Source of the DNA: Planctomycetota bacterium
Lineage (GTDB): Bacteria; Planctomycetota; Phycisphaerae; UBA1845
Length of the DNA: 63,285 bases
Assembly (NCBI GenBank): GCA_024276605.1
Contig: JAJRWX010000109.1
Coordinates: 1-63,285 of the forward strand
Direction of reading: 5' to 3'
Shown: in pieces, positions 25,174 to 44,788 of the stretch
Layout: the number at the start of each line of letters is the position of its first letter
Numbering within the stretch: the first letter of the stretch is position 1
Notes under the pieces: model-generated
What the model saw: the letters and a program-made list of their open reading frames with translations, nothing else
Database searches by the model: none
Told to the model about the DNA's origin: nothing
Program-made: the position numbers and the translations under genes

Positions 25174-25203
25174 TGTCTGGTATATCCCTTAGGTGGTGAT
25201 AGG

Positions 25204-25719
25204 ATGAGTATTGAGGTAATTCGCGGAGATATTACGAAGCAGACGGTGGATGCCATCGTCAATGCTGCGAATGAGACACTACTGGGTGGCGGCGGCGTGG
25301 ATGGCGCTATCCATCGGGCGGCGGGTCCGGAATTGCTGGCGCATTGCCGCAAGATGGGAGGATGTGCCACTGGCCATGCCTGCATTACGCCGGGTTTTCA
25401 GTTATCGGCGGATTATATTATCCATACTGTGGGGCCGGTTTGGCGAGGAGGGGAGGCTAACGAGTCGTCACAACTAGCATCGTGTTATCGTGAAAGTCTG
25501 ACTCTAGCGAAGCAGCATCATTGTAAAATCGTGGCATTTCCGGCAATCAGTTGTGGTGTATTCGGATATCCACTGGATACTGCCGCTAGCGTGTCCATAG
25601 CCGCTGTAATAGCGTATCAGCGAACCCATACAACACCACAGCATGTCCGGTGGGTGATGTTGGATCAAGAAGTGTTTGACATCTGGGAAGCGACAATTGG
25701 GATTATGGGGAAATTGTAA
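25204..25719 (+). CDS. Macrodomain O-acetyl-ADP-ribose deacetylase-like protein (YmdB type)
   Basis: This 171-residue stand-alone macrodomain belongs to the MacroD/YmdB group. The ADP-ribose-binding and catalytic loops are present: VDAIVNAANETLLGGGGVDGAIHRAAG (residues about 14-40, including the Asn and Asp of the active site), GCATGHACIT, HTVGPVW, and the phosphate loop SCGVFGYPLD. Enzymes of this group hydrolyse O-acetyl-ADP-ribose and remove ADP-ribose from acidic residues. It lies 30 bp downstream of the WaaP-like gene and probably shares its transcript; a functional link is not obvious. Confidence 0.92.
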   Translation: MSIEVIRGDITKQTVDAIVNAANETLLGGGGVDGAIHRAAGPELLAHCRKMGGCATGHACITPGFQLSADYIIHTVGPVWRGGEANESSQLASCYRESLTLAKQHHCKIVAFPAISCGVFGYPLDTAASVSIAAVIAYQRTHTTPQHVRWVMLDQEVFDIWEATIGIMGKL

Positions 25720-29167: not shown

Positions 29168-31759
29168 TCAATTTTCCTGTCCAGCAAGCAGGGGCATGAG
29201 GATCCACATAGCCCCGATCCAACTTGCCACGACGCCAATAGCCAACAAGAGACCGAGGGATTGAATGGCGGGCGTGCTGGTGAAGGCCAACGTACCGAAT
29301 GTGAGAACGGTTGTTAGACTGGTCATACCGATGGCGTGACAGCTAGCGCTAAAAGCATCTACCGTTTCTTCCGAACTGCGGCTACGTCGTTGTGCTCGCC
29401 GAGCCACCATGGTTAGGAAAATGCCGTCATCGACCCCAATACCTACGAGTAGCGGCAATGCAATCAGATTGAATGTGTTCAGTTTAATGTTAAACAAAAG
29501 CATGCAAGCTAGTAACACGACCATCCCGAATACTGCGGGTAATAGTGCCATCATAGTGGCCCACAGGCTACGGAATTGAATGAATAGCCAGCCCAAGACA
29601 ACGCAGGCCGCAATTCCGAGTAACTTGCCAAGTTCATGACGGATTGTTTTTTCGGTGTCATAACCTATGACCGTAATGCCTGTTAGTGTTGCGCCGTCCA
29701 AGTCAGCTAGCGCCGTTCGAACCGCTTCGATGGTCGTATTGCGCTGTGATCGCTGCCCCAATGCTTTTGGCGTAAAGATGACAGTCAGGGCCTCGGTGGG
29801 TAGCCCCATAGAATTGTCTCTCGTGATAGGTAACATCGAATCTGTAATACCGGGATAATTCAGTAATTCTCGTAGACCGATCCGTTGAGGCGAAAAGAGT
29901 TGTCTCAGAAAGCCGCGATAGGTATCAAACGCATCCGGATTGAACGGGCTATCGTCCAACGCATCATCGAAGTGATGTATGATTAGATCAACATCGAATG
30001 CTTTGATAGCTTCATGTTGTTGTTGGAAAGTTGTGGGGTCGGGAAGCAAAGAGGATAGTCCAAATACGCCTAATATGTGGTCGGCGCTGTGAGTTAATGG
30101 CTTGATACGCGCTTCGACTTGGTGAGCGAGTATGAGTAGGTCTTGCGGTGTCTGTGCTTCGAGATAAAGAAGAAGTGGGTCGGCAGCACCTGGAAAAAGC
30201 GTTTCGATACGACGCTGGGCTAACATGGCTTCATTGGGTCGCGGGTGCATGATGGTCAGGTCGTTCTCAAAGAGGGCACGCGTGTCATAGGTTAGAAACG
30301 ATATGATTATCGCTGTCACCGATACCATACCGCCCAGCATCAAGAAGATTCGACGATGTGACACGGCATGCACGAGCATACGACTCGTTATGGATCCAAC
30401 AGGCTTGTTAACTGATGTATGGGATGATTGAGGTCGAGTGGGGGATAAGGTTAATATCGCAGGAAGTAACATCACAGCCAAAACGAGACAGGCAACAAGT
30501 CCCATCACACCCAGTGCGCCAAATTCACGTAGGGCGGGCACGCTGGATTGAGAGATAGCGAAAAAACCGATGACCGTGGTTATGCAGGTTGCGACTAGTG
30601 CCGGTGTCAAATCGATGAGCGTATCAACGATGGCCTGTGTGTGAGCAATATGTAAAGCACGTTTGGCTTTGTAGTGAGAGATGATATGTATGCAATAATC
30701 TATTCCTAGTCCGGCGAGTATCGCCCCGATGACAGCGGTCATGGGAGATAAGTTCATACCGAGCATGGCGAACGTGCCGAAGCCGAATAGAATGCCGATG
30801 GCTACGGGGGCCAGCGCCGCAGGTAGCATCCAGATGTTTCGATAAACAAGCAGATATAGCATCTGAAGAAAAAGAATTGATAGGACGATACTACGGATCA
30901 TATCAGCGCGAATCGATTGGTGGGCAGTGGCTGCAATCGCATAAGCACCGGTGAACACGAGATCGAGATTGTCTTTGTTAATGCTGGTGGCAACCTTTCG
31001 AGCGGCACGCGTGAACGTGCCTGCGAAGTTGAGGTCCGATACGGGTGAAACGCCGCGTAGTCGGATGAGTAAGTGCTTACCATCCTTACTGAAAAAACCC
31101 TGGTCACTACTGAACAATCCAGTGTGCGCACCGAACGGGCGCGGCAATGCTGAGATAAGAAAGTCGCGTAGGCCTAGCGGATCCTTCATGGCTGAGCGTA
31201 ACATAATGCTTCCTGCACCGCCGGGAACGGATAACATGTCAGCCGTTTTGCGTAACTGCCGGCGCATCGAAGTTGGCGTTAATCGTTGAGCAAGATCTGT
31301 TATCGTTTCATCATTCAGATATAACAGAGCATTGGGAATGATATGAGTCTCAATGAATGAGCGCAAGTCGGAAGAAGGTTTCCATTGCACACTGTTACAC
31401 ATAGCTGAGAGTTCTGGTGAAGAAGCGAACGTGTCTGAGAGGCGTTGGGCAAATGAGACGAGGTAGTCCGTAGCATTAAGGTTTGAATCCTCATGGGCGA
31501 GGGTTTCGGGTGATGAAACGAGTATGATGAGTTCGTCCGCCGCAGCGAAATCGTGAGAGAGTCGTGCGAGTGCTTTGGCCGCCGGTTCATCGCTAGCGAC
31601 CATGGCGTCGATGGTAGCTACTGGCTGTAATCGCGAGGCACTAATTGCCGCAGCTACACTCAGTACCATGGCTAGGATGACTACCGTACCGGCGCGGCGT
31701 GTTAGCTTTTGGATCAGTCGTGACAGAAGCGAAGTAGGGGGGTGGGGGCTGTTGGTCAT
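29168..31759 (-). CDS. MMPL/RND-type exporter of the aryl polyene-like cluster
   Basis: This 863-residue inner-membrane protein has the two-fold RND arrangement. One transmembrane helix (about 26-46) and a large periplasmic loop precede five helices (about 270-430). A second helix (about 460-482), loop and five further helices (about 705-860) follow. The motif GIDYCIHIISHY near residue 350 and its repeat GVDDGIFLTMVARR near 785 carry the acidic residues of MMPL proton relay sites. MMPL proteins move lipids or lipid-linked products; homologues are regular members of aryl polyene and xanthomonadin clusters. It is the last gene of the ten-gene operon, overlapping the upstream lipoprotein gene by 4 bp. 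Confidence 0.88.
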   Translation of the reverse strand: MTNSPHPPTSLLSRLIQKLTRRAGTVVILAMVLSVAAAISASRLQPVATIDAMVASDEPAAKALARLSHDFAAADELIILVSSPETLAHEDSNLNATDYLVSFAQRLSDTFASSPELSAMCNSVQWKPSSDLRSFIETHIIPNALLYLNDETITDLAQRLTPTSMRRQLRKTADMLSVPGGAGSIMLRSAMKDPLGLRDFLISALPRPFGAHTGLFSSDQGFFSKDGKHLLIRLRGVSPVSDLNFAGTFTRAARKVATSINKDNLDLVFTGAYAIAATAHQSIRADMIRSIVLSILFLQMLYLLVYRNIWMLPAALAPVAIGILFGFGTFAMLGMNLSPMTAVIGAILAGLGIDYCIHIISHYKAKRALHIAHTQAIVDTLIDLTPALVATCITTVIGFFAISQSSVPALREFGALGVMGLVACLVLAVMLLPAILTLSPTRPQSSHTSVNKPVGSITSRMLVHAVSHRRIFLMLGGMVSVTAIIISFLTYDTRALFENDLTIMHPRPNEAMLAQRRIETLFPGAADPLLLYLEAQTPQDLLILAHQVEARIKPLTHSADHILGVFGLSSLLPDPTTFQQQHEAIKAFDVDLIIHHFDDALDDSPFNPDAFDTYRGFLRQLFSPQRIGLRELLNYPGITDSMLPITRDNSMGLPTEALTVIFTPKALGQRSQRNTTIEAVRTALADLDGATLTGITVIGYDTEKTIRHELGKLLGIAACVVLGWLFIQFRSLWATMMALLPAVFGMVVLLACMLLFNIKLNTFNLIALPLLVGIGVDDGIFLTMVARRAQRRSRSSEETVDAFSASCHAIGMTSLTTVLTFGTLAFTSTPAIQSLGLLLAIGVVASWIGAMWILMPLLAGQEN

Positions 31760-32493
31760 GGTTGTTTTTTCGCTCGACGTGACGGTACGAACGCACGCTT
31801 CGATAGTTCTTCATTTATGTCTACACGTGAAAAGTGTATCTCGAAATCTCCCCCGTCACCGCTTCCCTTGACATGCATCGGCCAGACGATGTTGTGGATT
31901 GGTCGGTAGGCATCGAGGGTGAGCACTTGGCGGACTTTGCTTTGCTCGTCGAAGTAAGTGCAAGTTGATGTGGTCAATGTGGATTTGTCAACGGTACAAG
32001 TAAGCGTGGCGTGGTCAAGACGCGTATTTTTATTGAGCGCAAAACCATGTTGATTCGTCGATGCGCCTATCTTCCATGTTGTCATGTCACCAAAACCCGG
32101 CAGCATCGATAATGCTTCGATGAGACGTTCGTGGGTTAGTTTATCCGTTGGTGACGCTGATTTATCTTTCCTGTCTGCGGTAAATACGAAAAGCCCATCT
32201 TTGTTTAGTGTAACATCCATGACGGTACGGGTAAGCTTCCACACGCGAAGTCGAAAATGGTTCGGCGGCCTGGCTACGATAGCGCCTTTCAATTCGATTT
32301 GTCCCTTACCGGATTGTAATAATAGTGAAAAGGTTGTTGAGATTGTTTGAATACGATTGTCGCGTGCAGTCATAGTAGATAAGGCTGTGTTTGTGTCGTG
32401 CCATGTGTAATGTGGAAGTGCGTGCATGCACCCGCCAGCCAACATGACTGTGAATGTAATACTCGACATGAATACTGTGATTCGGTAAGTCAT
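31756..32493 (-). CDS. LolB/DUF4292-like outer-membrane lipoprotein
   Basis: The 245-residue protein has a lipoprotein signal: a hydrophobic segment followed by LAGGC (Cys22). The mature part resembles the LolA/LolB half-barrel: FSLLLQSGKGQIELKGAIVARPPNHFRLRVWKL near residues 55-87 and repeated strand pairs after it, as in DUF4292/LolB proteins that accept hydrophobic cargo at the outer membrane. Together with the LolA-like gene and the MMPL gene it suggests a dedicated route carrying the pathway product to the outer membrane. It overlaps the ligase gene by 1 bp (TGATG) and the exporter gene by 4 bp. Confidence 0.7.
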   Translation of the reverse strand: MTYRITVFMSSITFTVMLAGGCMHALPHYTWHDTNTALSTMTARDNRIQTISTTFSLLLQSGKGQIELKGAIVARPPNHFRLRVWKLTRTVMDVTLNKDGLFVFTADRKDKSASPTDKLTHERLIEALSMLPGFGDMTTWKIGASTNQHGFALNKNTRLDHATLTCTVDKSTLTTSTCTYFDEQSKVRQVLTLDAYRPIHNIVWPMHVKGSGDGGDFEIHFSRVDINEELSKRAFVPSRRAKKQP

Positions 32494-33971
32494 CAGGCGA
32501 TTTGAAGTCGCAATAGTTTTCCGGTGGGAGATTTTGGTAGTGACGTCACAATGTCAAAAACGCGAGGCACCTTGTGAACGCTGAGACGCTCACGTGAGAA
32601 ATTCCGCAGTTCTTCGGCTGATGGTGGGTGATCCTTGTCAATAGGGACGATAACCGCTTTCACACGGGAAATAGTATCCGTAACCGGCAAGGCTAGGACT
32701 GCGCATTCTTTTACCAGAGGGTGTTCGCAGAGTACGGATTCAACTTCCAAAGGGTTTACCTTGAGGGCGCCGACATCGATCAGAATTTTGATACGACCGG
32801 TGATGGTCAATGAGCCATCCGTATCCAACCGTCCAAGATCGCCGGTTAGAAAATAACCGTCTTGCAACGATGTTTCGTTTTGGTTGATATAGTGAACAAG
32901 CATGGAAGGTGCGCAAATAGCCACTTCTCCTTCAACGCCGCATGGTAGTGGATGATCAATTTGTGGTTTGTCTGGATCAACAATGCGGATCGTCACACCC
33001 TCCATAGGTAAGCCCGCACTCTGCGGGTTGCGACCACTGATATTGGGATTATTGAACGTGATGGAGCCTACTTCGCTAGAACCATAAAGTTGGCCAACGG
33101 TTAGTTGCAATCGCTGTTGACAGCTATCAACCACGCTTTGGGGAAGTTGAGAGCCTGCGGAGTACGCACATCGTAGCGAGGGAAAAGCCTGTTGGCGGTT
33201 ATCGAGTTGTGCGAGCATCTCGAAGACGGATGGTACGCCCGGTAATACCGTGATAGCTCCATTACGCAGTTGATCCATGACCGTTTGTATGTCGAAACCT
33301 TGGCACAAATGTACGCAGCAACCGGCATACGCGGGTGCTAGGATGCCATGTTCCACACCGTAAGAATGGCATAATGGTACCATGCCAAGTATACGATCGT
33401 CATAACGTAGATTCGTAGCGGTCGCAATATTGTGCGCTACGGCATCAAGCGAAGGCCCGTCTCGAAAAACGATTTTCGGCGTACCCGTTGTGCCGCTGCT
33501 GAGTAACATGAGTCCACAGCCCTTTGTGTCAATGCTCATACTTGGTAGGTCTGTGTAGTGAATACCACCATCTATAGCTTTATCGTTGACTATGTGTTGA
33601 ATGTCTAGTCCGTCTAGTTTCTCTATGACACCTTCGGCTGCGATTAACGCCTTGGCTGAGGCAGATTTCGCAGCGCGACACAGTTCGCGATCTGAGACGT
33701 TGGGATTGATGAGGAAGCCGACCATTCCCGCTCGCAGGGTAGACAAGAAGGCAACTGTACAATCGATCTTGTTGGGAAAGCTAATGACTACAACACCGCT
33801 GGGTTTGAGCGTAGATGAGATAGTCGCAGCCAATGATTCAATTCTGTCGTTTAGTTGGGCATAGGTCACGCATCGCTCTTCTTGGCCTTCGCGAGAAATT
33901 TCACGAATGGCTATCGTATCACCGCGCTGTGTGGCGTGCTGTCTGAGGTGATGAAGGAGTAGGTTGGCCAT
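32493..33971 (-). CDS. AMP-dependent aryl/acyl ligase (likely hydroxybenzoate-ACP/CoA ligase)
   Basis: This 492-residue ANL-superfamily adenylating enzyme activates a carboxylic acid with ATP and transfers it to a thiol. Motifs are complete: LLSSGTTGTPKIVF at residues 157-170, YGSSEVGS, GYFLTGDLGRLD, GRIK and the catalytic Lys485 in SPTGKLLR. In xanthomonadin synthesis the comparable enzyme XanA2 loads 3-hydroxybenzoate onto the carrier protein. Since a chorismatase and an ACP are encoded in the same operon, the same substrate is the simplest inference, but sequence alone does not prove it. It lies 59 bp after the flavoprotein gene. Confidence 0.88.
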   Translation of the reverse strand: MANLLLHHLRQHATQRGDTIAIREISREGQEERCVTYAQLNDRIESLAATISSTLKPSGVVVISFPNKIDCTVAFLSTLRAGMVGFLINPNVSDRELCRAAKSASAKALIAAEGVIEKLDGLDIQHIVNDKAIDGGIHYTDLPSMSIDTKGCGLMLLSSGTTGTPKIVFRDGPSLDAVAHNIATATNLRYDDRILGMVPLCHSYGVEHGILAPAYAGCCVHLCQGFDIQTVMDQLRNGAITVLPGVPSVFEMLAQLDNRQQAFPSLRCAYSAGSQLPQSVVDSCQQRLQLTVGQLYGSSEVGSITFNNPNISGRNPQSAGLPMEGVTIRIVDPDKPQIDHPLPCGVEGEVAICAPSMLVHYINQNETSLQDGYFLTGDLGRLDTDGSLTITGRIKILIDVGALKVNPLEVESVLCEHPLVKECAVLALPVTDTISRVKAVIVPIDKDHPPSAEELRNFSRERLSVHKVPRVFDIVTSLPKSPTGKLLRLQIA

Positions 33972-34030
33972 GGTTGTCAGTCTTGGTAAAGCTACGGTAG
34001 CAAGTGCGCAATGCGCTACAGCCTGTCATT

Positions 34031-35383
34031 CTATGCGGACGTGGCCACCGCCTCAACCAAAGGCAAGGGGACAGGTTGCGTACTGCATAATGAGTGTGAG
34101 TCTCGTCGAGGAACCATGGCCACCCGAGCATGTATTTTGGTGAAGAGCTCCATAAGGTATAATCGCCATCTCAAAGGCCACGAAATTCTGGGGAAAATAT
34201 AGCCGCTGAGTATGGAGATGATCGCCGGTTGAATATTCACTGGGCCTTGTCCATGCAAGAAAAGTTCGCGAAAACTGTGATCGTAGAAAAGGTTGACTAA
34301 TGTGACGAACGGGGCGGATGATCGGTTGATATAGTTGATGTAATCTCGTCGAATACGGGCTGGTCTACGCGGTTTCTTACCGTTCGTTGTATGTGTACCG
34401 TCGAGATGTGCAAGTAACTCTTCGGCATCTGCGGCTGCTCTGACGGCCATCTCCATGCCAAGTCCCAGGCCGCTGGAGAAAATGGGATCCAGAAAAAAAG
34501 CTGCGTCACCAATGAGAAAATATCCCGGTCCGGCGAAGGGGCGACAGTAATAGCTGAAGTCGGCGATCGTGTGTGTTTGATCAGGGAATACGGCAGACGC
34601 CGTACGGTCTCGCACAAGTGGGCATCGCTGAATCCCCCAGTGAAGCATTTCGGAAGTGGGGCAATCGATCGATCGAGCTACATCACTATCCAAAACCATA
34701 CCAATGCTGGTACGCTTTTTGTCGATGTTGATGAGCCAGAACCACCCCTCGTCGCACATGGCTACCGTGGGATGACCTTCGGATTGTCCGGGTAGTCGTT
34801 GCACCTGTTCAAAGTGTCCGAAATAGGCGACTTTGCGGTGATGTTGCATGATTTTTTTGGAGCCAAGATGTCGTGCGAGGACGGTGCCTTGGCCGCTGGC
34901 ATCTAACAGGCACTTACCTTCGATGATGTTACCGTCGACTTCAACGGCGATGTCACCTTCATTGAGTTGGACGATTCGTCTGACAGGAGCTTCCGTTCGG
35001 ACATCTGCGCCGGCATCGGCTGCAGCTTCAAGCATCATGTCGTCGAAAATGGCACGTTCGATGTTGAAGGTTTCGTAGCCGTCATCGAATAGTGACTCAC
35101 TAAAATCGAAGCAACTGGTATCCTTGCCATGTCCAAAGCCGAACTCCGCACCAACTTTAGTCATGCGTGGCAACCGGGAGAGTTGCTCCTCTAAGCCTAG
35201 CTGTTTGAGTAGCTCGAAACCAGCGGGTAAAAATGACTCTCCCACGTGAAAACGGGGAAAAGCACTTTTTTCAAGTACGATCACGCGCTTTCCAGCCCGC
35301 GTAAGGAGCAGGGCAGCCGTCGCTCCGACTGGTCCACCGCCTATGATTACAACATCGTTTTTAGGATGATTGTCGTTTTCCAA
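34031..35383 (-). CDS. Halogenase-like FAD-dependent oxidoreductase
   Basis: The 450-residue flavoprotein has the Rossmann FAD motif GGGPVG (residues 15-20), the halogenase-group motif FPRFHVGESFLP (42-53) with a Lys at position 76 in a TKVGAEFGF context, GWFWLIN (213-219, close to the WxWxIP of flavin-dependent halogenases) and the FAD site GDAAFFLDPIFSSGLGLGM (292-310). Such proteins are halogenases, hydroxylases or reductases. Native xanthomonadins are halogenated and their cluster also carries a halogenase-like gene, so ring or chain modification is a reasonable guess; a hydroxylase or polyene-modifying role is equally open. It is in the same operon as the ligase and chorismatase genes. 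Confidence 0.85.
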   Translation of the reverse strand: MENDNHPKNDVVIIGGGPVGATAALLLTRAGKRVIVLEKSAFPRFHVGESFLPAGFELLKQLGLEEQLSRLPRMTKVGAEFGFGHGKDTSCFDFSESLFDDGYETFNIERAIFDDMMLEAAADAGADVRTEAPVRRIVQLNEGDIAVEVDGNIIEGKCLLDASGQGTVLARHLGSKKIMQHHRKVAYFGHFEQVQRLPGQSEGHPTVAMCDEGWFWLINIDKKRTSIGMVLDSDVARSIDCPTSEMLHWGIQRCPLVRDRTASAVFPDQTHTIADFSYYCRPFAGPGYFLIGDAAFFLDPIFSSGLGLGMEMAVRAAADAEELLAHLDGTHTTNGKKPRRPARIRRDYINYINRSSAPFVTLVNLFYDHSFRELFLHGQGPVNIQPAIISILSGYIFPRISWPLRWRLYLMELFTKIHARVAMVPRRDSHSLCSTQPVPLPLVEAVATSA

Positions 35384-35435
35384 CTGAAACCTTTCTTAGA
35401 AAGTATCCATTGAAATCAAGCTGTACATGCTTGCA

Positions 35436-36548: not shown

Positions 36549-38845
36549 TTATGGGCGGAAGTGGTCAGTTGGATTTTCGTACCGTACACACCGCCGTAAT
36601 AATCGGAACAGATGACGCCTGCACTGGGTAAGTACATCATCATGGCAGCGCTCAGTGAGGCCAGGGGGCCAACACTAAATCGCTCTGTAATCGCTGTATC
36701 AGCACCGACATATCGACAGACATCATGGGGGAAATGTCGAACAGCTGCCGCGTCGATGCGGTCGAGGTAGTGGCCATTACCGGAGGAGAACAGCGTATCG
36801 AGCTTTCCGAGTTCCCGGATGACACGTTGTGTGGTGCGTATACGAGCACTCGCACCTGGATTTGTCGCATACGATGCGGCGGTTTTTGCGAGCGTGGCTC
36901 GGATCGTCGCTTGGCGTTTCTTAGCTAGATCGCCTCTTTCTAAAATGAAAGTAATTGCGCCACTAGCAAACGAAAATTCTTCGGCGTGTCTATTACCGTA
37001 GAGTTTCTTAAACCGATCACAATAGGCTTGTGTGACAATGTCAGTAGTTTCTTCCACCGCGACCACGACCACTCGGTCCCACTGTTCTGCGCGGATGCGT
37101 GCGGCTGCAAGATGAAGGGCTTCCAACCCTGCGGTACGTGTGCCAATTAATGTTTGGCAGAACCCTTTGATTGAGAATGTTGTACTAAGATGCGCGCTGG
37201 CGACGTTGGGAACACCTTCCGCGAAGAGTATGGGATTGACTGAGTTAATACCTTCATCTATGAGTTGTTGATAGTAAGATTCACAGTAATGGGATGCCGC
37301 ATGTGTCGTGGCTACCAGGGCGGCGCAATGTGCGCCAAAATCAGGAACATCTTCAATACCGGCATCGCGATAAGCTTCTGACGTGGCGGCTAAACAAAGT
37401 TTGGCGTATTCACTCATACGGCGCGTGCGTCTGGCGTTGATAAGGTGTTCGTATTTTTCCGCAGGAATCGTGCCAACACCGCCATCATAAACTTGTCCGT
37501 CAACGTTGTTTATTTGTTTAACGAACGCATCGTTTCCAATGGCAGCGGGTAGAACGACGCCAATGCCAGTGATGACGACGTCATGGTTAAACTTGTTACC
37601 GTCAAGTTTATTGTCTGTCGCTGTAGATATGTGGTGGTGCGGGTCGGTTTTCGGCGCCGCCAGGATCATGCAGGAATTTGCCCCACCGAAACCCAGCGAG
37701 GTGTTGAGTACATATCGTATAGGTTGCGTTGCCGATCGCCCGCATGATACTTGTAGGTCTGAAAATTCCGAATCTTCAGTCGTGATGTTGGCACACGGCG
37801 GTACCATTTGGTCACGAATGGCTAGTGCGGCCAAGATCAGGTCAACCGCCCCGGCTGCCCCTAAAGAATGCCCGAGGTGACTCTTGAAGCCTACGATGGG
37901 TATATCCGGTAGGCACTTGCCGAAAACTTGGGCTAATGCGGCGTGTTCTGATGCGTCATTATCCGGCGTAGCGGTAGCGTGAGCGACTAGCAGGTCAATA
38001 TCTTCCGGATCGAGATGAGCAGCGCTGATGGCCTGACGCATGGCCTGGGCTGCGCCCGAGCCTTCGGGATGAGGCTTGGATAAATGGAAGGCATCGCACG
38101 ATTCACCGAAACCGATAATTCGGGCAAGTGGTTTGGCGTTTCGTGCCAACGCATGTTGCGCACGTTCCAATATTACTATCGCGTATGCCTCGGCTAGCTT
38201 CATGCCATTTCTTGTATGAGCAAACGGTCGAAGTGTCGTATCGCTAACGAGTCGCATCGAATTAAAGCCACCATAGGCGTATTCACTAATGGGGTCATAT
38301 CCACCGGCGATGACGATGTCCGCTTGATTTGTTTGCAGCAGTGTGCATCCCAACGAAATGCTGGCCAGACCGGAAGAACAGGCCGAACATGTCGTCGTGG
38401 TCATAGCGACATGGGATAAGTTTTTCACGATGTTTGGTACTACTGCACCAGCGAGGAATGATTGGAGGGCAGTGGTATCACGAGTTCGTAGAAATGCCCC
38501 GCCATTTCTCATCCCGTGTAGTGAGGTGCCAAGTACAACCGCATAGCGCATTGAAAGATCGGATTCCTGATTGTTCAGCCCTGCGGTCGTGCATGCTTCA
38601 TTGAAGGCGAGTTGTAACAGATGAGCTTCGCGCGGGTTAGCGAGATCAACACCTGCACCAAGGTCGGGATCGCGTACTTCTCCGCCTCCTAGGTTAGGGT
38701 CGAGTGGAGATTCGATCGCAGTCAGCGGCATGATACCACATTGCCCGCGTATAACCGCTTGCCACGTGGATTCGCGGTCTCGACCAAGACAAGTGACGAG
38801 TCCTGCACCGCTGATAACAATGTCATGATTATCTTTGTTCAACAT
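36545..38845 (-). CDS. Fused ketosynthase and chain-length-factor-like protein
   Basis: The 766-residue protein contains two thiolase-fold beta-ketoacyl synthase units. Unit 1 (residues 7-396) has a complete triad: Cys156 (SACSSG), His289 (VAHATATPDND) and His326 (KSHLGHSLGAAGA). Unit 2 (about 420-760) keeps the fold, but the nucleophile position is Arg570 (GFCQTLIGTRTAGLEAL) and the GH of the third motif reads GP (RFSVGPLASLSAAM), so it cannot condense. This matches a KS-CLF pair, as in ApeO-ApeC or type II polyketide synthases, but on one chain. It would extend the aryl starter with malonyl units and set chain length. Stop and start overlaps on both sides place it at the centre of the operon. 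Confidence 0.9.
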   Translation of the reverse strand: MLNKDNHDIVISGAGLVTCLGRDRESTWQAVIRGQCGIMPLTAIESPLDPNLGGGEVRDPDLGAGVDLANPREAHLLQLAFNEACTTAGLNNQESDLSMRYAVVLGTSLHGMRNGGAFLRTRDTTALQSFLAGAVVPNIVKNLSHVAMTTTTCSACSSGLASISLGCTLLQTNQADIVIAGGYDPISEYAYGGFNSMRLVSDTTLRPFAHTRNGMKLAEAYAIVILERAQHALARNAKPLARIIGFGESCDAFHLSKPHPEGSGAAQAMRQAISAAHLDPEDIDLLVAHATATPDNDASEHAALAQVFGKCLPDIPIVGFKSHLGHSLGAAGAVDLILAALAIRDQMVPPCANITTEDSEFSDLQVSCGRSATQPIRYVLNTSLGFGGANSCMILAAPKTDPHHHISTATDNKLDGNKFNHDVVITGIGVVLPAAIGNDAFVKQINNVDGQVYDGGVGTIPAEKYEHLINARRTRRMSEYAKLCLAATSEAYRDAGIEDVPDFGAHCAALVATTHAASHYCESYYQQLIDEGINSVNPILFAEGVPNVASAHLSTTFSIKGFCQTLIGTRTAGLEALHLAAARIRAEQWDRVVVVAVEETTDIVTQAYCDRFKKLYGNRHAEEFSFASGAITFILERGDLAKKRQATIRATLAKTAASYATNPGASARIRTTQRVIRELGKLDTLFSSGNGHYLDRIDAAAVRHFPHDVCRYVGADTAITERFSVGPLASLSAAMMMYLPSAGVICSDYYGGVYGTKIQLTTSAHK

Positions 38846-38846
38846 G

Positions 38847-39818
38847 CTATGTTTTGAAGGGGGCTGGATCGGAATTCATATCTTCCAACCATACTTTTTC
38901 ATACATAGCCCATTGCTCAGGATGGGCTTGGACAACCCGTGCTATGGCCGAGGTAATGTTACGCAAGGCTGGGTGGTCCCCATTTACCGGTCCCGGCTCG
39001 CGCGATACGAAGACGGGCTTATTGATAATGACGCGACAATGACCGACGCGCGTCCGTACTGAGAATATAGGTATAATCGGCGAACCACTAATCATCGCAA
39101 GTTTGATCGGTCCGGTCGGGAAAAGCACATGGCCGCCGAGAAAGGGGACAGGGACGCCGCGTTGTCCGGGCATGACTCGGTCTCCCTGAATGACGATGAT
39201 GTTGTCCGCCAAGAGCGCATCTCTCATGTGTGTCCAGATGGCCCACCCATCGTCGATAGCCTCTTCGATGATGCCGAGTTTGGCTCGGAGTTTAGATCGT
39301 AAGTGGTCAAATCCAGACCTGGCATCTCGCTGATAGATGACATGGATTTTTTTTTCTCGACTACGTAATGCGGAAAGGCTGACTTCAAAAGGACCAATAT
39401 GGGCGGTAACGATGATCGCCCCATTACCTGATTCTCGGGCTTGCTGGTAATACTCCAGGCCATCCACTTTCTCGATCCAATTGGATAGCACTGTTTCGGT
39501 TGCTCCGGCTGCTAGGCCGAGTTCATAAATGCTTGTGTAAGCACTTTGAATCATTTTGCGACGCAGGCGTTCTACCTCCACATCGCTAGCGCCGGGACTT
39601 AGAAGCCTGCGCGCGTTGGCTGTGGGTCCGTCGCGTAACGTCTTGGAGAATTTTAGCGCGAACCATAAAAAAAATGGACGCGTGATGAGTACGAACAAAG
39701 GGCAATGCTCTACGGACCAGTACATAAAATCTCGCCAGAAATTGGCTGTGGCCTCACGAATACGAGAGACGGGACTTGCTGGTGCGTGAATCTGACCTTG
39801 CAAGGTTGAATTGTTCAT
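38847..39818 (-). CDS. LpxL-like lysophospholipid acyltransferase
   Basis: The 323-residue protein belongs to the LpxL/HtrB acyltransferase group. The catalytic HX4E is His140-Glu145 (TAHIGPFE); the substrate-binding segments YQRDARSGFDHLRSKL and IQGDRVMPGQRGVPVPFLGG follow, with GSPIIPIFSVR after them. An amphipathic or hydrophobic stretch at 40-56 may dock it to the membrane. In aryl polyene and xanthomonadin clusters the comparable enzyme joins the polyene acid to a lipid or glycolipid. It lies 1 bp downstream of the LolA-like gene overlap and 1 bp before the KS-CLF gene. Confidence 0.9.
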   Translation of the reverse strand: MNNSTLQGQIHAPASPVSRIREATANFWRDFMYWSVEHCPLFVLITRPFFLWFALKFSKTLRDGPTANARRLLSPGASDVEVERLRRKMIQSAYTSIYELGLAAGATETVLSNWIEKVDGLEYYQQARESGNGAIIVTAHIGPFEVSLSALRSREKKIHVIYQRDARSGFDHLRSKLRAKLGIIEEAIDDGWAIWTHMRDALLADNIIVIQGDRVMPGQRGVPVPFLGGHVLFPTGPIKLAMISGSPIIPIFSVRTRVGHCRVIINKPVFVSREPGPVNGDHPALRNITSAIARVVQAHPEQWAMYEKVWLEDMNSDPAPFKT

Positions 39819-40552
39819 GGTTGACTCTTGGGCTTCGTTGAGTCGCTCTCCGTGCGATCTCCGAGAGGATACACTGTTGTCACATCGTCTGGAACATGTA
39901 GTTTAACCTGAGCATTTGTCACACCTACATTCGTGCGGATATTCGTAAAAGTGATAACCGTACGATCGCCGTCGGGGTCTATCATTTCTACATGGTTAGC
40001 TATACCTATTCTTTCATCAATCCGGACGAACAGTTCTTCGATGAAGTCGCCTACAGATTCATCTTTGGGTGTGAGGCGAAGTTGGAGCGAATCCGAAGGT
40101 GAATTGAGGTTGCGCGGATCAAGTTCGATTGTGAAGTAGCGTCGAAGCGTTATGAGTTTAGGCAGCGGAGAAATAGCCAATGAACGCAGGTGTCTGTCGA
40201 GCGTATATATCTCGACTGTTTTTCGAGCGGCGTAATAGATGGTGATGTTTTCATCACCCATAAAGAGACTAATGGCTGTCGGTTCGGTGGTTTTCCAGTG
40301 AGTTCGCTTACCCTTGATGAAGATGGTTCCCTTGGATAAGAGAGGTTTTTTCAACATCGCAGTGAAAACTTTTTCTTGAAAATTAGCCGTGACATCACGG
40401 ATGTGTTGGGTCTTCTCGTCGAGTTGTGAAAGGCGTACATCGAGATCATTAGCCCAGCTGTATGGGGCCGTAAGGACTATGAGTAGGACACTTGCGCGAT
40501 AAGAACAAGCTTTGCAAACTAACGTGACAGCGTGTTTTCTTGTGGCGTTCAT
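39815..40552 (-). CDS. LolA-like periplasmic lipid/lipoprotein carrier
   Basis: The 245-residue protein has a signal peptide (hydrophobic SVLLIVLTAPYSWA, about residues 20-34). The mature part shows the LolA half-barrel: LDEKTQHIRDVTANFQEKVFTAMLKKPLLSKGTIFIKGKRTHWK, then VEIYTLDRHLRSLAI and FTIELD strands. LolA-like genes are standard members of aryl polyene clusters, presumably to ferry the lipidated polyene through the periplasm. It overlaps the dehydratase gene by 4 bp upstream and the acyltransferase gene by 4 bp downstream. Confidence 0.87.
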   Translation of the reverse strand: MNATRKHAVTLVCKACSYRASVLLIVLTAPYSWANDLDVRLSQLDEKTQHIRDVTANFQEKVFTAMLKKPLLSKGTIFIKGKRTHWKTTEPTAISLFMGDENITIYYAARKTVEIYTLDRHLRSLAISPLPKLITLRRYFTIELDPRNLNSPSDSLQLRLTPKDESVGDFIEELFVRIDERIGIANHVEMIDPDGDRTVITFTNIRTNVGVTNAQVKLHVPDDVTTVYPLGDRTESDSTKPKSQP

Positions 40553-41028
40553 GTTGAGGTAGCGGCGCTGTTCGTGGTTAGAGACGGTAGAGAAAGAGTT
40601 AGGGTACCATGGGTGATGCGCTTATCGTTAACCGCCGCTTGCACGTCAAATTGAATCAGGTCGCCGAAGGTGCAACGGATGCGGCTCGAAAGATGTATCT
40701 TGGCAGGCGGTGTCACCGAATCACTAAATCGAAGGTCAATATGGGCGAGTTTGCCAAGCGGTGCTTCACGATCGGATGGAGGACGGTTCATGGCTTGGTA
40801 TTTTACAACGGCTACCATACCGGAAAGTTGTGCAAGCGCTTCACCGATCAACACGCCGGGCACGATAGGATGGTCAGGAAAATGGCCTGCAAAGAACGCC
40901 TCACTACCATCGACGCACCAGATAGCATGTCCCGATGAATCAGTGTCGACATGAACTTGTTCAGTGATAAATAGGAATGGTGGACGATGCGGTAAACAAT
41001 CTAAGATGTTCTCCGCTTGATGGTCCAT
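40549..41028 (-). CDS. FabZ/ApeI-like 3-hydroxyacyl-ACP dehydratase
   Basis: This 159-residue hot-dog-fold dehydratase has LPHRPPFLF (12-20) and the active-site helix GHFPDHPIVPGVLIGEALAQ, with catalytic His49 and Glu63. It removes water from 3-hydroxyacyl-ACP, producing the conjugated double bonds of a polyene. It lies 10 bp after the ACP gene. The extra residues before and after the core resemble pathway-specific (ApeI/ApeP) forms rather than a housekeeping FabZ, but this is a judgement by eye. Confidence 0.9.
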   Translation of the reverse strand: MDHQAENILDCLPHRPPFLFITEQVHVDTDSSGHAIWCVDGSEAFFAGHFPDHPIVPGVLIGEALAQLSGMVAVVKYQAMNRPPSDREAPLGKLAHIDLRFSDSVTPPAKIHLSSRIRCTFGDLIQFDVQAAVNDKRITHGTLTLSLPSLTTNSAATST

Positions 41029-41038
41029 ACTAAAATTC

Positions 41039-41311
41039 TCACAGGCCTTCCCGGATATTGCTCTGAGCCGCTACGAAATCACCTAGTGTTTGGGTAGTGG
41101 CAAAAATTTCAGGCCCCATGGCTTCGGAAGGAATCTTGATGTTAAATGCTTTTTCGATGCTTTGAGCTAACAGTAGTGCATCGAGGGAATCGAGATCGAG
41201 ATCCCCACCAAACAGGGCGGTATCCGGCGCGATGGTGATGTCAGGTCCGAGTTTGAGATCTCGTCGTAAAATCTCGACAATCCGACTGATTAGGTTTTGG
41301 TTGTTAGGCAT
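41039..41311 (-). CDS. Acyl carrier protein of the polyene-like cluster
   Basis: The 90-residue acyl carrier protein has the 4'-phosphopantetheine attachment site DLDLDSLDALLL with Ser42, followed by an acidic recognition helix. The isoelectric character is acidic, as usual. No phosphopantetheinyl transferase gene is present in the window. It is the first gene of the minus-strand operon; its start has only a weak purine-rich leader, and the promoter must lie in the 187-bp divergent region shared with the ABC transporter genes. Confidence 0.92.
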   Translation of the reverse strand: MPNNQNLISRIVEILRRDLKLGPDITIAPDTALFGGDLDLDSLDALLLAQSIEKAFNIKIPSEAMGPEIFATTQTLGDFVAAQSNIREGL

Positions 41312-41482
41312 GGTTAACTTCTACTTCAGGCCAAAAATGTCCTCACATATCCAATAAATCGTTGGTGCTGATACCGCTCACGATGGCGGATTTTCCTGGA
41401 ATTGTCAACCGGTCGAAACGACGGTGAGATTGTGCGATACGCTGCAAACCATGACGTCTTCGACGGTCGTCCTGTAAGCGAG

Positions 41483-41488
41483 TATACT
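41483..41488 (+). promoter_or_regulatory. Candidate -10 element of the ABC transporter operon
   Basis: TATACT ends 10 nt before the ATG of the ABC ATPase gene, giving a predicted leader of about 4 nt. A weak TTCGAC lies 18 bp upstream. This is in the 187-bp region between the two divergent halves of the cluster, which is where a shared regulator would bind; I see no obvious operator palindrome. Confidence 0.35.
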
Positions 41489-41498
41489 TCGCCGCACG

Positions 41499-42344
41499 AT
41501 GTTAAAGGTATGTCAACTTTGTAAGCGTTTTGGATCAATCCTCGCGGTGGATTCTCTATCGTTTGATGCACAGCCCGGGGAAATTCTAGGCCTGCTAGGA
41601 CCAAATGGTGCTGGGAAAACGACGAGCATCAACATGATTGCAGGGTTGCTTCATGCGGATGCCGGTGAGGTCGATGTGGGGGGGCTAGGTTCACCAACTC
41701 GATCCGAAGTCAGGCGAAAAATCGGGATAGCGCCGCAAGCGTTAGCGTTGTATGACGCACTTACAGGAGAGGAAAACCTGCGATTTTTCGGGCGATTGGC
41801 AGGGTTGTCCGGCAAGGCGCTGCGTGATCGTGTGTCTTGGTCACTTGATTTTGTGTTGTTGACGGATCGAAAGCACGATCGAGTTAAAACTTATTCAGGC
41901 GGCATGAAAAGGCGTATCAATTTAGCGGCGGCACTAGTACACGATCCGCCACTATTGCTTTTGGATGAACCTACCGTTGGCGTGGATCCACAATCACGGA
42001 ATGCCCTATTTGAAAATGTCCTGGCCATGAAGGCCCAAGGACGAACTGTGATTTATACCACACACTATATGGAAGAAGCTGAAAAACTTTGTGACCGCGT
42101 TGGCATCATGGATCATGGAGCGTTTCTTGCGTTTGATACGGTGGCCCGTCTTATCGAGGCATATGGTGGTCATAGCATGGTCACCGTCGAACGACAAAAC
42201 GGTCGGGTGCAAATCGAATCCGATGATCCATTGGCGGAGTGTGTGCGGTTGCAAAAGGAAGGTGAAATACTTTCTTTGCGCGTAGATCAACCAAACTTGG
42301 AACGCGTTTTTTTGAATCTGACAGGCCGGGCGATGAGGGATTAA
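41499..42344 (+). CDS. ABC transporter ATP-binding protein
   Basis: This 281-residue ABC ATPase is of the DrrA/CcmA-like exporter type. Walker A GPNGAGKT is at residues 34-41, followed by the Q-loop, signature YSGGMKRR, Walker B LLLLDEPTVGVD, and switch His in TTHYMEEAE. It pairs with the ABC-2 permease whose ATG overlaps its stop by 1 bp. Such pairs export polyketides, glycans or lipids. Position directly opposite the polyene operon suggests export of the product or of a glycan attached to it, but a separate role is possible. Confidence 0.93.
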   Translation: MLKVCQLCKRFGSILAVDSLSFDAQPGEILGLLGPNGAGKTTSINMIAGLLHADAGEVDVGGLGSPTRSEVRRKIGIAPQALALYDALTGEENLRFFGRLAGLSGKALRDRVSWSLDFVLLTDRKHDRVKTYSGGMKRRINLAAALVHDPPLLLLDEPTVGVDPQSRNALFENVLAMKAQGRTVIYTTHYMEEAEKLCDRVGIMDHGAFLAFDTVARLIEAYGGHSMVTVERQNGRVQIESDDPLAECVRLQKEGEILSLRVDQPNLERVFLNLTGRAMRD

Positions 42345-43507
42345 TGCGAAAAGTAGTCACAACCATAGCAGTCAATGACATACGTCTCCTGCTGAGAGAC
42401 AAGGGCGGCGCGTTTGTGACGTTTGTCTTTCCACTGGCTTATTGTATTTTCTTCGGGCTTATTTTCGCAACGCATAATACATCGCCTCGTGCGATCGATA
42501 TTGTGATAGTGGACGAAGATCATAATCAACAGTCTGAGGAGTTTGTTGAATTACTCAAGCAAAGCGGCGCTGTTGAATTAAAGATGGCTTCGCGTGAACA
42601 GGCGATGGAGCAGGTACGTCGTGGTAATCATGCTGCATACGTAGTGATTACTGAAGGGTTCGGTAAGGCATCACAAAACGTACGAACAGATGATCGACCG
42701 AAAATAGAGATTGGTCTCGATCCCTCCCGTAAGGCTGAATCAGAAGTAGTCAAGGGTCTTATCTCAAAGTACGCCTTTGAATTTTTCTATTCCCATATAA
42801 ATAAACGCCTAGTGGGCGATGTGCCTGACAATCAGCACGAAGCGTGGTCTGGTTTTACGCCTGTCGAGATCGAGACTACCGAGATCGTGCAGACGAGAAC
42901 CGGGCCGTCAAGCAGCTATGATATATCATTTCCTCAAGGCATTATTTGGGGCGTGCTCGGTTGTTGTGCTTCCTTTGGTATTTCATTAGTCAACGAACGC
43001 ACGACAGGTACACTCTCCAGGCTTCTCGTAGCCCCAATCACCCGCACGGATATTCTCGCTGGTAAAGCGCTAGCTTGTTTTAGTTCCACACTATTGCTTG
43101 GCACTGTGCTGTTCGTTGTAGGTATGGTTGCGTTTAACGTGAATCCACAAGCCCCTTTCCATTTAGCCATTTCCTTATTGGCCATTTCTACGGCGTTCGT
43201 AGGGATTATGATGTTTATCTCAATCCTGGGTAAAACAGAACGCGCCGTCAGTGGAATTGGTTGGGCGGTGTTGTTGTCGATGGCCATGCTCGGCGGAGGG
43301 ATGGTGCCGCGATTTTTTATGCCGCATTGGATGCAAACACTCAGTACGATAAGTCCTGTAAGTTGGGCGATTCTTGCGATGGAAGGTGCTGTTTGGCGTG
43401 GCTTTTCTACGAGTGAGATGTTGCTTCCGTGGAGCGTGCTGGCTGGAGTAGGACTTCTTTTTTTCGTGATCGGTGTCCGAGGATTCTCCTGGCCGGATAA
43501 AGGTTAG
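42344..43507 (+). CDS. ABC-2 type permease
   Basis: The 387-residue membrane protein has one N-terminal helix (about 22-44), a large extracytoplasmic domain (45-190), then five helices (about 200-385). The first helix-proximal segment VNDIRLLLRDKGGAFVTFVFPL and the ERTTGTLSRLLVAPITRTDILAGK motif are typical of ABC-2 exporters. It forms the membrane partner of the preceding ATPase gene, with which it overlaps by 1 bp. Confidence 0.92.
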   Translation: MRKVVTTIAVNDIRLLLRDKGGAFVTFVFPLAYCIFFGLIFATHNTSPRAIDIVIVDEDHNQQSEEFVELLKQSGAVELKMASREQAMEQVRRGNHAAYVVITEGFGKASQNVRTDDRPKIEIGLDPSRKAESEVVKGLISKYAFEFFYSHINKRLVGDVPDNQHEAWSGFTPVEIETTEIVQTRTGPSSSYDISFPQGIIWGVLGCCASFGISLVNERTTGTLSRLLVAPITRTDILAGKALACFSSTLLLGTVLFVVGMVAFNVNPQAPFHLAISLLAISTAFVGIMMFISILGKTERAVSGIGWAVLLSMAMLGGGMVPRFFMPHWMQTLSTISPVSWAILAMEGAVWRGFSTSEMLLPWSVLAGVGLLFFVIGVRGFSWPDKG

Positions 43508-43534
43508 GTTCCAGTGCAGTAGTTGGAGCAAGAA

Positions 43535-44788
43535 GTGAAATCGGAGGCGGCAAGTGATTTTAATGCGGTAGTTGTTGTTCCGACCTACAACAATGCTGCG
43601 ACACTTACTGACATTCTGGATCGAATCGAGTGTATCGGTGTTGCGATGATCGTCATTGATGACGGCGCTTCGGACGACACGCCTTCCATATTAAAGCAAT
43701 GGGTCGGTCAGAAACATTCAGTATATGTCAAAGTTCTGACACATCAGAAAAATCAAGGCAAGGCTGCAGCATTAATGACGGGATTTTCGGGGGCGCGGCG
43801 CTTGGGCTATACACATGCGGTGACGATGGACACGGACGGGCAACTGTCACCGGAAGATATTCCCGCGATGTTAGCCGCAGCTAAGTCGTCCCCGGATGCG
43901 TTAGTCCTCGGACGACGAAGTACGACAACGCCGGGTTTACCGCAATCAAATCTGATCGGGTGGTATACGTCAGGATTGGGCATTTGGGTGGAGACAGGGG
44001 TTGCCTTGATTGACAGTCAATGTGGGTTGCGCATCTACCCGTTACGATTGTTTGACCACGTTCAATGTCGTGTGGGTCGGTTTGGCTTCGAGGCGGAGAT
44101 TATTGCCCGTGCGCTTTGGGCTGGGTTTTCCATTATTGAGGTTCCGGTTGCCTGCGAATATCCTCCGCAGGATCAAAGCGTCTCGCATTTTCGGCCAGTC
44201 AAAGATGGGATCAAAGGATTTTTCATGCACTGGGCGCTGGCCATACGAAGGCTGATCCCCTGGCCAATGCCTCAGGTTATCACAACTGATTCTAACAACA
44301 AGGTCGAAAAATCTGTGCTCACCGGGAGGGAGTCTTGGTTGCATTGGATAAGCCCGTTGACGTGGTGGCGACAGATACGAGATAGTCGTTTGTCACAATT
44401 AATCATGGCTTCCGATGTGGGTTTAGGTGCATTCATGGCTTGCATGCCGTTGGGATGGTGGATTATACCGGCTGTGTTGTATAGCTCTAAACGATTACAT
44501 CATAATCTATGGGTCACAGCCCTCGGTGCTACATTGGCTTTACCACCGATGGGTGACGAACTAGCCAAGGTATCTATTACGATTGGTCATCTGTTGACAC
44601 ATCTAGGGCTACCGGATTTTTCTTTAGCCATGCCGGGTACGCATACGCTGAGCCAAGTCTTGCTAACCTTTCCTGTTTCGTGGTGTGTAGGCGGTGTCGT
44701 GCTTGGATGTGCATTACATTGGACGGCTATTGGCGGATTGATGTACCTGTTTCGTCATGCACCTCTGATTATGACCAAGCCGTTATAG
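43535..44788 (+). CDS. GT2 glycosyltransferase with C-terminal DUF2062-like membrane domain
   Basis: With GTG at 43535 as start (GGAG 6 nt upstream) the protein has 417 residues; TTG at 43523 is the alternative. The N-terminal 230 residues are a family 2 glycosyltransferase: VVVVPTYNNAATL, VIDDGASDDT, and a DXD motif in MDTDGQL. The C-terminal part has hydrophobic helices and ASDVGLGAFMACMPLGWW, typical of DUF2062. Fusions of GT2 and DUF2062 occur in aryl polyene-type clusters. It probably glycosylates the lipid-linked product at the inner membrane. It follows the permease gene by 27 bp in the same operon. Confidence 0.88.
   Translation: MKSEAASDFNAVVVVPTYNNAATLTDILDRIECIGVAMIVIDDGASDDTPSILKQWVGQKHSVYVKVLTHQKNQGKAAALMTGFSGARRLGYTHAVTMDTDGQLSPEDIPAMLAAAKSSPDALVLGRRSTTTPGLPQSNLIGWYTSGLGIWVETGVALIDSQCGLRIYPLRLFDHVQCRVGRFGFEAEIIARALWAGFSIIEVPVACEYPPQDQSVSHFRPVKDGIKGFFMHWALAIRRLIPWPMPQVITTDSNNKVEKSVLTGRESWLHWISPLTWWRQIRDSRLSQLIMASDVGLGAFMACMPLGWWIIPAVLYSSKRLHHNLWVTALGATLALPPMGDELAKVSITIGHLLTHLGLPDFSLAMPGTHTLSQVLLTFPVSWCVGGVVLGCALHWTAIGGLMYLFRHAPLIMTKPL

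Follow-up and report, generated by a model that had tools for sequence, protein, structure and literature searches.

The locus described here was read, with a probability of about 75%, as a planctomycete variant of the xanthomonadin/aryl polyene type: a type II polyketide system, primed by a chorismatase, for the synthesis and export of an aryl polyene lipid. The window (the whole stretch of DNA that was analysed) is 63,285 nucleotides long, and the host genome is that of a Phycisphaerae planctomycete, in line with the host proposed in the first-pass annotation: the four named relatives of the ketosynthase-chain length factor (KS-CLF) are MAGs of Phycisphaerae, Phycisphaerales or Planctomycetota. 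The xanthomonadin/aryl polyene assignment made in that annotation is well supported by the parts and their active sites, the correspondence of GT2 and LpxL to the N- and C-terminal halves of ApeJ, the rejection of a FabF/FabB placement and a more canonical unfused cluster elsewhere (L118/L130). Features that did not fit it are the fusion of KS and CLF, a CLF half not recognised as ApeC-type and the failure to find a ketoreductase gene in the locus. The features are as follows.

29168..31759, minus strand: MMPL/RND-type inner-membrane exporter, predicted ApeM-like role (PF03176, E 1.2e-33; ApeM 22%, E 2.5e-11)
31756..32493, minus strand: LolB-like putative outer-membrane lipoprotein (LolA/LolB fold in the model, invariant Cys-22)
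32493..33971, minus strand: AMP-dependent ligase, predicted to load an aryl starter on the ACP (PF00501, E 1.7e-54; PF13193)
34031..35383, minus strand: flavin-dependent halogenase-type flavoprotein (PF04820, E 1.9e-20; Trp_halogenase/FAD Pfam support)
35436..36548, minus strand: FkbO/Hyg5-family chorismatase (PF21168, E 3.2e-20)
36545..38845, minus strand: fused ketosynthase-chain length factor, 766 aa (PF00109/PF02801 in the N half, PF00109 in the C half)
38847..39818, minus strand: LpxL-type acyltransferase (PF03279, Lip_A_acyltrans, E 1.8e-23; matches the ApeJ C-terminal half)
39815..40552, minus strand: LolA-type periplasmic carrier (PF03548, E 6.1e-10)
40549..41028, minus strand: FabZ-type hotdog dehydratase (PF07977, E 1.5e-15)
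41039..41311, minus strand: acyl carrier protein, ACP (PF00550, PP-binding, E 1.3e-10)
41312..41498, no strand: divergent intergenic region of 187 bases separating the two gene sets, putative site of both promoters
41499..42344, plus strand: ABC transporter ATPase (PF00005, E 4.3e-31)
42344..43507, plus strand: ABC-2 permease (PF12698, E 3.2e-40)
43523..44788, plus strand: GT2-DUF2062 glycosyltransferase (PF00535, E 3.4e-19; matches the ApeJ N-terminal half)

All 13 genes are open frames at these positions, ten on the minus strand and three on the plus strand, facing apart. The open frames and Pfam matches bore out the parts list claimed for the minus strand, apart from the LolB-like protein, which has the fold but no family match, and the divergent ABC and GT2-DUF2062 genes; the DUF2062 part of the last gene had a weak Pfam score (16.3 bits, cut-off 27.4). 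Overlaps of 1-4 bp were found at five of the nine minus-strand junctions and gaps of 1, 10, 52 and 59 bp at the other four, so that the description "mostly 1-4 bp overlaps" was slightly generous.

The chorismatase scored above the PF21168 cut-off, and alignment to 5ag3 and 4bps placed its Gly-192, Gly-256, Cys-352 and Glu-359 on Gly-173, Gly-240, Cys-327 and Glu-334 of Hyg5. Like Hyg5, which forms 3-hydroxybenzoate (3-HBA), it thus has the acid Glu, and the Cys/Gly pair where FkbO has Ala. The score against NCBIfam TIGR04444 was 141 bits, below the cut-off of 325. The residues that mark 3-HBA formation are present, in support of the chorismatase named in the first-pass annotation; sequence alone does not separate a XanB2-type product (3-HBA plus 4-HBA) from a Hyg5-type one (PMC3949708). 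The solved structures nearest to the ligase include oxalyl-, malonyl-, 4-coumarate- and chlorobenzoate-CoA ligases, and because of this mixture its substrate could not be read from structure. A dedicated ACP, a dehydratase and an AMP ligase of predicted aryl specificity accompany the chorismatase.

The motif DLDSL in the ACP translation is presumably the phosphopantetheine site, and the dehydratase carries HFPxxPxxPG and GEALAQ, which we take to be FabZ-type dehydratase motifs. The PDB matches of the flavoprotein include the halogenases 8zop, 3e1t and CmlS. Its Lys-76, Trp-214, Trp-216 and Ile-218 were present in 9/9 aligned sequences, while the Pro of WxWxIP was kept in three, replaced by Asn in five (including the window) and by Ala in one. 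A catalytic Lys and WxWxI(P) mark flavin-dependent halogenases, and with these motifs the protein is a putative halogenase.

Both halves of the KS-CLF named in the first-pass annotation were found, fused into a single polypeptide; its CLF half could not be recognised as ApeC-type. Cys-156, His-289, Lys-321 and His-326 of the KS half were present in 22/22 aligned sequences (20 planctomycete sequences including the window and two plasmid references; L078 and L086 were not included), and the CLF site has no Cys. This is the Cys-His-His and Cys-less CLF pattern of type II PKS KS-CLF proteins, and the fold agrees: the best full-length match of the moderately sure model (pLDDT 74.7, worst of five 41.6) was the PfaC KS-CLF, 6riw. 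The CLF half matched PF00109 at 60.6 bits. PF13723, against which E. coli ApeC scores 225 bits, gave no match to it at E 0.1, and a two-sequence ApeC profile gave the window only 20 bits. An ApeC/ORF16-type CLF (PF13723) was accordingly not recognised.

In the KS tree, the 20 fused KS formed one clade (100/97) on a long stem outside the ApeO clade. Their union with the ApeO clade was weak in one tree (82/58), and the tree that included L118 did not resolve it. The first-pass annotation had set a fatty acid placement of the KS in advance as an outcome that would tell against it, and grouping with FabF/FabB was rejected (p-AU 0.00013). Six rows, long or uncertain, were kept out of both the p-AU tree and the L118 tree; the former also omitted eight and the latter ten of the 20 fused KS, and L118, L086 and L129 were added to the latter. 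One wrongly chosen frame, own_C23_KS, was left out of all KS trees. A Variovorax KS (L101) was set aside, having no cluster around it. These results bear on the suggestion that the locus is a duplicated fatty acid synthase module for an ordinary membrane lipid. FabZ, ACP, a FabF-like KS and an LpxL-like acyltransferase would suit such a module, and most of the top single-chain PDB matches of the KS were FabF. It was nevertheless judged very improbable, given the chorismatase and ligase in the operon, the rejected FabF/FabB grouping, the CLF half without the active-site Cys, and the fact that no FabH, FabD, FabG or FabI was recognised in the locus.

The GT2 protein matched ApeJ (34%, E 1.5e-36) and the LpxL-type protein matched ApeJ residues 298-549 (23%, E 6.6e-7), so that between them they match both parts of the E. 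coli protein. The LolA protein scored below the cut-offs of NCBIfam lolA (60.9 bits) and flexirubin LolA2 (50.4 bits), and its match to ApeL was weak (E 0.004). The LolB-like protein gave no match to ApeN by sequence comparison and no Pfam or NCBIfam family above cut-off. Its predicted structure (pLDDT 83) has the fold common to LolA and LolB and so does not decide between the two (first match 3bk5, E 6e-10; P. gingivalis LolB 9tpm, TM 0.63), and Cys-22 was invariant in 9/9 aligned sequences. The transport set of aryl polyene clusters, an ApeJ-type glycosyltransferase and acyltransferase with LolA and MMPL, is represented.

The order of all thirteen genes was preserved in two further genomes of the genus (L029, L030) and the core recurred across the class Phycisphaerae, including a nearly complete two-contig genome (G192), so the grouping is not due to chance. 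Relatives were taken from matches above 30 bits, and four C-terminal matches with E >1e-6 were left aside. Three pairs of records (L012/L034, L013/L037, L010/G189:C245) are the same contigs and were each counted once; L011 ends before any chorismatase. The fused KS-CLF was near the chorismatase in 22 of the 30 scored chorismatase loci, in families f1, f8, f11, f20 and f22, and in one more when the contig was followed further. The FabZ-type dehydratase was present in 20/30, the other ten being cut or short on that side or having no KS nearby. Exporter and halogenase genes differed between families, and the ligase, halogenase, LolB or MMPL was absent from the fetched stretch in some relatives. 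The ABC ATPase was retained within the genus and in family f22 loci; its weak matches (70-78 bits) in L033 and L086 are probably unrelated. L033 is a second chorismatase of genome G022, with no PKS nearby. No KS-CLF match lay within the fetched stretch of eight chorismatase-like loci outside the class (L119-L126), no annotated PKS was found around chorismatase matches in four plasmid neighbourhoods (Caballeronia, two Aureibacter and Parabacteroides; of 11 records), and a viral scan for the chorismatase found no relative. L093 and L094 were rejected as chorismatase loci (12 bits).

The linkage of chorismatase and KS-CLF in five families largely refutes the idea that the chorismatase and ligase belong to a pathway for a siderophore or another product of peptide type, next to which the fatty-acid-like genes just happen to lie. 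FkbO/Hyg5 chorismatases do initiate other natural products (PMC7170507), but Pfam showed no NRPS condensation domain in the locus, and this explanation is exceedingly improbable. Cispentacin-type synthesis was also set aside, the AmcF, AmcE and AmcB matches all being below cut-off.

A dedicated in-cluster ketoreductase, as in aryl polyene and xanthomonadin clusters, was not found. ApeQ gave no ketoreductase by tblastn in the window and 34 loci, and a KR profile matched 0/33 stretches, although the same profile does find the unlinked FabG-like enzymes L095 and L096. None was found in 38 kb around the unfused locus L118/L130. According to PMC8041823, FabG was unable to substitute for ApeQ in vitro; four FabG-like enzymes of the host genome (of 12 matches) do not have the ApeQ Leu, with Phe in three and Val in one. 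The empty ketoreductase scans, the in vitro failure of FabG and a CLF of another lineage would speak for a 3-hydroxybenzoyl-primed type II polyketide other than a classical polyene, such as a short, partly reduced or cyclised hydroxyphenyl lipid handled by the same acylation, glycosylation and export machinery. Against it stands the retained FabZ-type dehydratase: such an enzyme works only on a substrate that has been reduced, which calls for a ketoreductase of some kind, and we consider the non-polyene product unlikely. It is conceivable, though rather doubtful, that the locus represents a class-wide Phycisphaerae lineage of aryl polyketide lipid synthases with a single-chain KS-CLF, its own CLF type and no dedicated ketoreductase, making an aryl chain unlike xanthomonadins and aryl polyenes (e.g. 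halogenated, differently reduced or cyclised).

For the preferred reading, an aryl polyene lipid, the parts, active sites and conservation described above are observed at the sequence level, and from them we infer the starter, product, halogenation, anchor and route. The chorismatase would convert chorismate to 3-hydroxybenzoate, which the AMP ligase would load onto the dedicated ACP. The fused KS-CLF would extend it with malonyl units, with the CLF half setting the length. An unlinked ketoreductase would reduce each keto group and the FabZ-type enzyme would dehydrate it; as an enoyl reductase gene was not recognised in the locus, the double bonds would be retained. Halogenation or oxidation of the ring may be the task of the flavoprotein, and the LpxL-type acyltransferase together with GT2 would join the chain to a glycolipid-like anchor. 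Transfer to the outer membrane would fall to the MMPL, LolA and LolB-like proteins, whether or not the ABC pair takes part. The probable product would then be a polyene held in the membrane and capped by a phenol, similar to the yellow Xanthomonas pigments.

Such a locus in this type of organism had been presented as worth describing. A literature search, mostly outside subscription journals, listed no paper on planctomycete aryl polyene loci that are primed by a chorismatase or have KS and CLF fused. The aryl polyene kind as such is less new than supposed, since antiSMASH arylpolyene calls are already published: one in Phycisphaera mikurensis (PMC8882080), so that the kind is not unheard of in the class, and one in another planctomycete strain (PMC11588811). 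The locus widens the range of chorismatase-primed loci of aryl polyene type to a large class of which little is in culture, and presents the pathway in a minimal form, its KS and CLF covalently held one to one. Two questions become testable through it: which ketoreductase serves a pathway that encodes none beside it, when FabG fails for ApeQ in vitro, and what sets the chain length once KS and CLF are fused.

Several known systems resemble the locus. The xanthomonadin/arcuflavin clusters of Xanthomonas, Lysobacter and Azoarcus share the chorismatase, AMP ligase, ACP, dehydratase, KS and partner, acyltransferase, glycosyltransferase, LolA and exporter, a likeness taken from published gene lists, not from direct sequence comparison (PMC3949708, PMC3691225; PMC8253772 was also used as pathway reference). 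A halogenase gene is listed there for Xanthomonas and Azoarcus, not for Lysobacter (PMC3949708 Table 1; PMC3691225). The planctomycete locus differs in being smaller, with a fused KS-CLF, one dehydratase and an ABC pair, and with neither a ketoreductase nor a methyltransferase recognised; a thioesterase was not recognised either. The E. coli CFT073 Ape cluster (L070) shares the KS, ACP, dehydratase, ligase, MMPL, LolA and ApeJ-type GT2 and acyltransferase. It lacks a chorismatase or halogenase gene and has in addition the ApeQ ketoreductase, ApeC-type CLF, a second KS, a thioesterase, a methyltransferase and ApeG.

Natural KS-CLF fusions also occur in PfaC of PUFA synthase (6riw) and in Priestia and Streptomyces plasmid genes, which share 15-29% identity with it and stand in other gene contexts; the annotated plasmid stretches that were read contain no chorismatase. 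The cluster L118/L130, from another planctomycete class (genome G489), has the chorismatase, halogenase type, ligase, ACP, KS, CLF, MMPL, LolA, LpxL and GT2. Unlike the window, it has separate KS and CLF, a CLF matching PF13723, an ApeG-like gene and two small frames with weak ApeI/ApeP matches. In the tree its KS was sister to the fused KS at 89/87, short of the starred level. The flexirubin-like cluster of Aureispira anguillae (L103, classed from its genes) shares GT2-DUF2062 (33%, E 8.6e-46), a separate Lip_A_acyltrans, LolA, ACP and KS; it is unfused and has an aromatic amino acid ammonia-lyase in place of the chorismatase, a ketoreductase and a PF13723 CLF. A Pseudoalteromonas cluster, of aryl polyene type by its genes, likewise has a separate GT2, Lip_A_acyltrans and halogenase-type genes.

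The window, contig C99, belongs to a 4.5 Mb genome that is 96% complete. The earlier call of a probable planctomycete host is correct, as the four named KS-CLF relatives are Phycisphaerae, Phycisphaerales or Planctomycetota MAGs. All thirteen genes of the cluster described in the first-pass annotation were located as open frames in the stated region, and the original observation stands.

Genes of the locus (window coordinates, strand, type)
29168-31759, minus, MMPL
31756-32493, minus, LolB-like
32493-33971, minus, ligase
34031-35383, minus, halogenase-type flavoprotein
35436-36548, minus, chorismatase
36545-38845, minus, KS-CLF
38847-39818, minus, LpxL-type
39815-40552, minus, LolA
40549-41028, minus, DH
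41039-41311, minus, ACP
41499-42344, plus, ABC ATPase
42344-43507, plus, ABC-2 permease
43523-44788, plus, GT2-DUF2062

On the minus strand, neighbouring genes overlap by 1-4 bp at five of nine junctions, and the widest gap is 59 bp. At 23821-25719, upstream of the subtilase flanking the locus, a Kdo/WaaP-type kinase adjoins a macro-domain protein.

The proposed xanthomonadin/aryl polyene pathway type is likely right, and we put the probability of an aryl polyene-type product at about 0.75. The locus works like an Ape-type cluster; family membership is not claimed, because two usual features, an ApeC-type CLF and a dedicated ketoreductase, were looked for and not found and the placement of the KS is open. 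An antiSMASH arylpolyene call for Phycisphaera mikurensis appears in a passage of PMC8882080. Genome G192 (stretches L086, L127 and L128) carries chorismatase, fused KS-CLF, LpxL, LolA, DH-ACP and GT2, with no match to ligase, halogenase type, LolB or MMPL within the 50 kb covered.

The 766-residue synthase was aligned with 19 relatives, one Priestia plasmid sequence and one Streptomyces plasmid sequence (n = 22). Cys-156, His-289, Lys-321 and His-326 of the KS half were kept in 22/22, while the CLF position matching the KS Cys was Cys in 0/22 (among the 20 from planctomycetes, 17 have Arg and 3 Val). The predicted structure (pLDDT 74.7, with five models spanning 41.6 to 74.7; pTM 0.84) matches the PfaC KS-CLF didomain over its full length (TM 0.74). 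The CLF half matched PF00109 and had no match to PF13723, the family into which the ApeC of E. coli and the CLF of Aureispira fall. Fused KS halves formed one clade, with support of 100/97 in one tree and 100/100 in two others. They joined the ApeO clade at 82/58 in one tree, with no resolved union in the tree including L118, a stretch from genome G489. Grouping with two other fused KS-CLF proteins was not rejected (p-AU 0.143); grouping with FabF/FabB was rejected (p-AU 0.00013). On Priestia megaterium plasmid pBM500 (L099, 6794-16654), a fused KS-CLF lies in a type II PKS-like locus beside FabZ, ACP, FabG, malonyltransferase, PPTase, thioesterase and a GcvT-like gene.

An unfused cluster was found in G489, from another class of the phylum (L118, L130). 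It comprises a chorismatase, KS and CLF as distinct genes with a four-base overlap, ACP, halogenase type, ligase, MMPL, LolA, LpxL and GT2. An ApeG-like gene (E 3e-13) is also present, as are two small frames weakly matching ApeI (E 3e-6) and ApeP (E 4e-5); the one frame of this pair that was scanned had no Pfam match. Its CLF matches both PF00109 and PF13723. Its KS is 37% identical to ApeO over 310 residues and sister to the fused KS at 89/87, under the starred support level. In our reading this cluster is the more canonical of the two, and we infer that the fused form departed from it.

Chorismatase Cys-352 and Gly-256 align with Cys-327 and Gly-240 of Hyg5 (5ag3), where FkbO (4bps) has Ala at both sites, and Glu-359 aligns with the essential Glu-334 of Hyg5. 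The three residues were invariant in all ten aligned rows covering these sites, and Gly-192 was kept in 10/11. These Hyg5-type residues point to 3-hydroxybenzoate as the probable product, but a passage of PMC3949708 warns that sequence alone does not fix a chorismatase product. In the flavoprotein, Lys-76 and WxWxI were kept in 9/9 (the motif's Pro is Asn in the window), which makes it a putative halogenase. The halogenase type was not detected in the fetched stretches of KS-CLF loci L078, L082, L086 and L090, nor in that of L037, a short contig with KS-CLF. GT2 and LpxL of the window each match one half of ApeJ from E. coli; Pseudoalteromonas and Aureispira clusters likewise have Lip_A_acyltrans and GT2 as separate genes.

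Of all features of the locus, the missing ketoreductase is the one least well explained. This enzyme is encoded in aryl polyene and xanthomonadin-type clusters according to Table 1 of PMC8253772, Table 1 of PMC3949708 and the abstract of PMC3691225. None was found at the locus by tblastn or profile, nor by profile scoring in any of the 30 chorismatase stretches; the same profile does detect unlinked enzymes on contigs C29 and C3 of the window's genome. The simplest reading is that a housekeeping or unlinked reductase would perform the keto reduction. PMC8041823 reports that in Acinetobacter the in vitro role of ApeQ could not be taken over by FabG (ApeQ Leu-185 versus FabG Phe-183), and four FabG-like enzymes among 12 matches in the window's genome have Phe, Phe, Phe and Val there. 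The Leu signature is not universal, since Phe likewise occupies this position in the ketoreductase of Aureispira.

The family search matched the chorismatase in 14/51 genomes, four of them by a weak C-terminal match alone (E 9e-6 to 4e-4). PF21168 was matched in 53/397 genomes of the class (37 above the family cut-off) and 13/392 of the phylum sample (11 above). Among 33 fetched stretches scored with locus-derived profiles, 30 had chorismatase above 100 bits and served as denominator: KS-CLF, LpxL and halogenase type were each found in 22, ligase in 21, ACP and DH in 20, LolA in 15, GT2 and LolB in 13, MMPL in 12, ABC ATPase in 10 (two weak, probably unrelated) and ABC-2 in 8. Eight lacked KS-CLF; in L079 it lies farther along the contig (L129), L035, L019, L075 and L092 are very short or break off at the chorismatase or close to it, and in L033, L076 and L077 the contig end alone does not account for its absence. 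Two genomes of the genus (L029, L030) had all thirteen genes in identical order. Profile scoring of the five loci of family f22 recognised no LolA, LolB or MMPL; ABC genes were present. DH and ACP form a single open frame in several relatives, and a further fusion, a 558-residue frame with LolA-like and LpxL-like parts, occurs at L013/L037 685-2361.

Genome G022, which holds locus copy L032, also has a second, divergent chorismatase (L033, 10248-11213), and the 20 kb fetched around this gene shows no PKS genes. Plasmids of the Bacteroidota genera Aureibacter and Parabacteroides (L072, L073 and L074) encode "hypothetical proteins" that resemble chorismatases. A gene for a c-type cytochrome or a YncE-like protein precedes them, with SUMF1-type genes nearby and, in two of the three, dhaK, dhaL/DAK2 and lsrF. 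The window's genome has a second type II PKS-like locus on contig C76 (L038, 6067-15303), with a DUF1702 protein, an ACP, three KS-like genes and an MMPL transporter.
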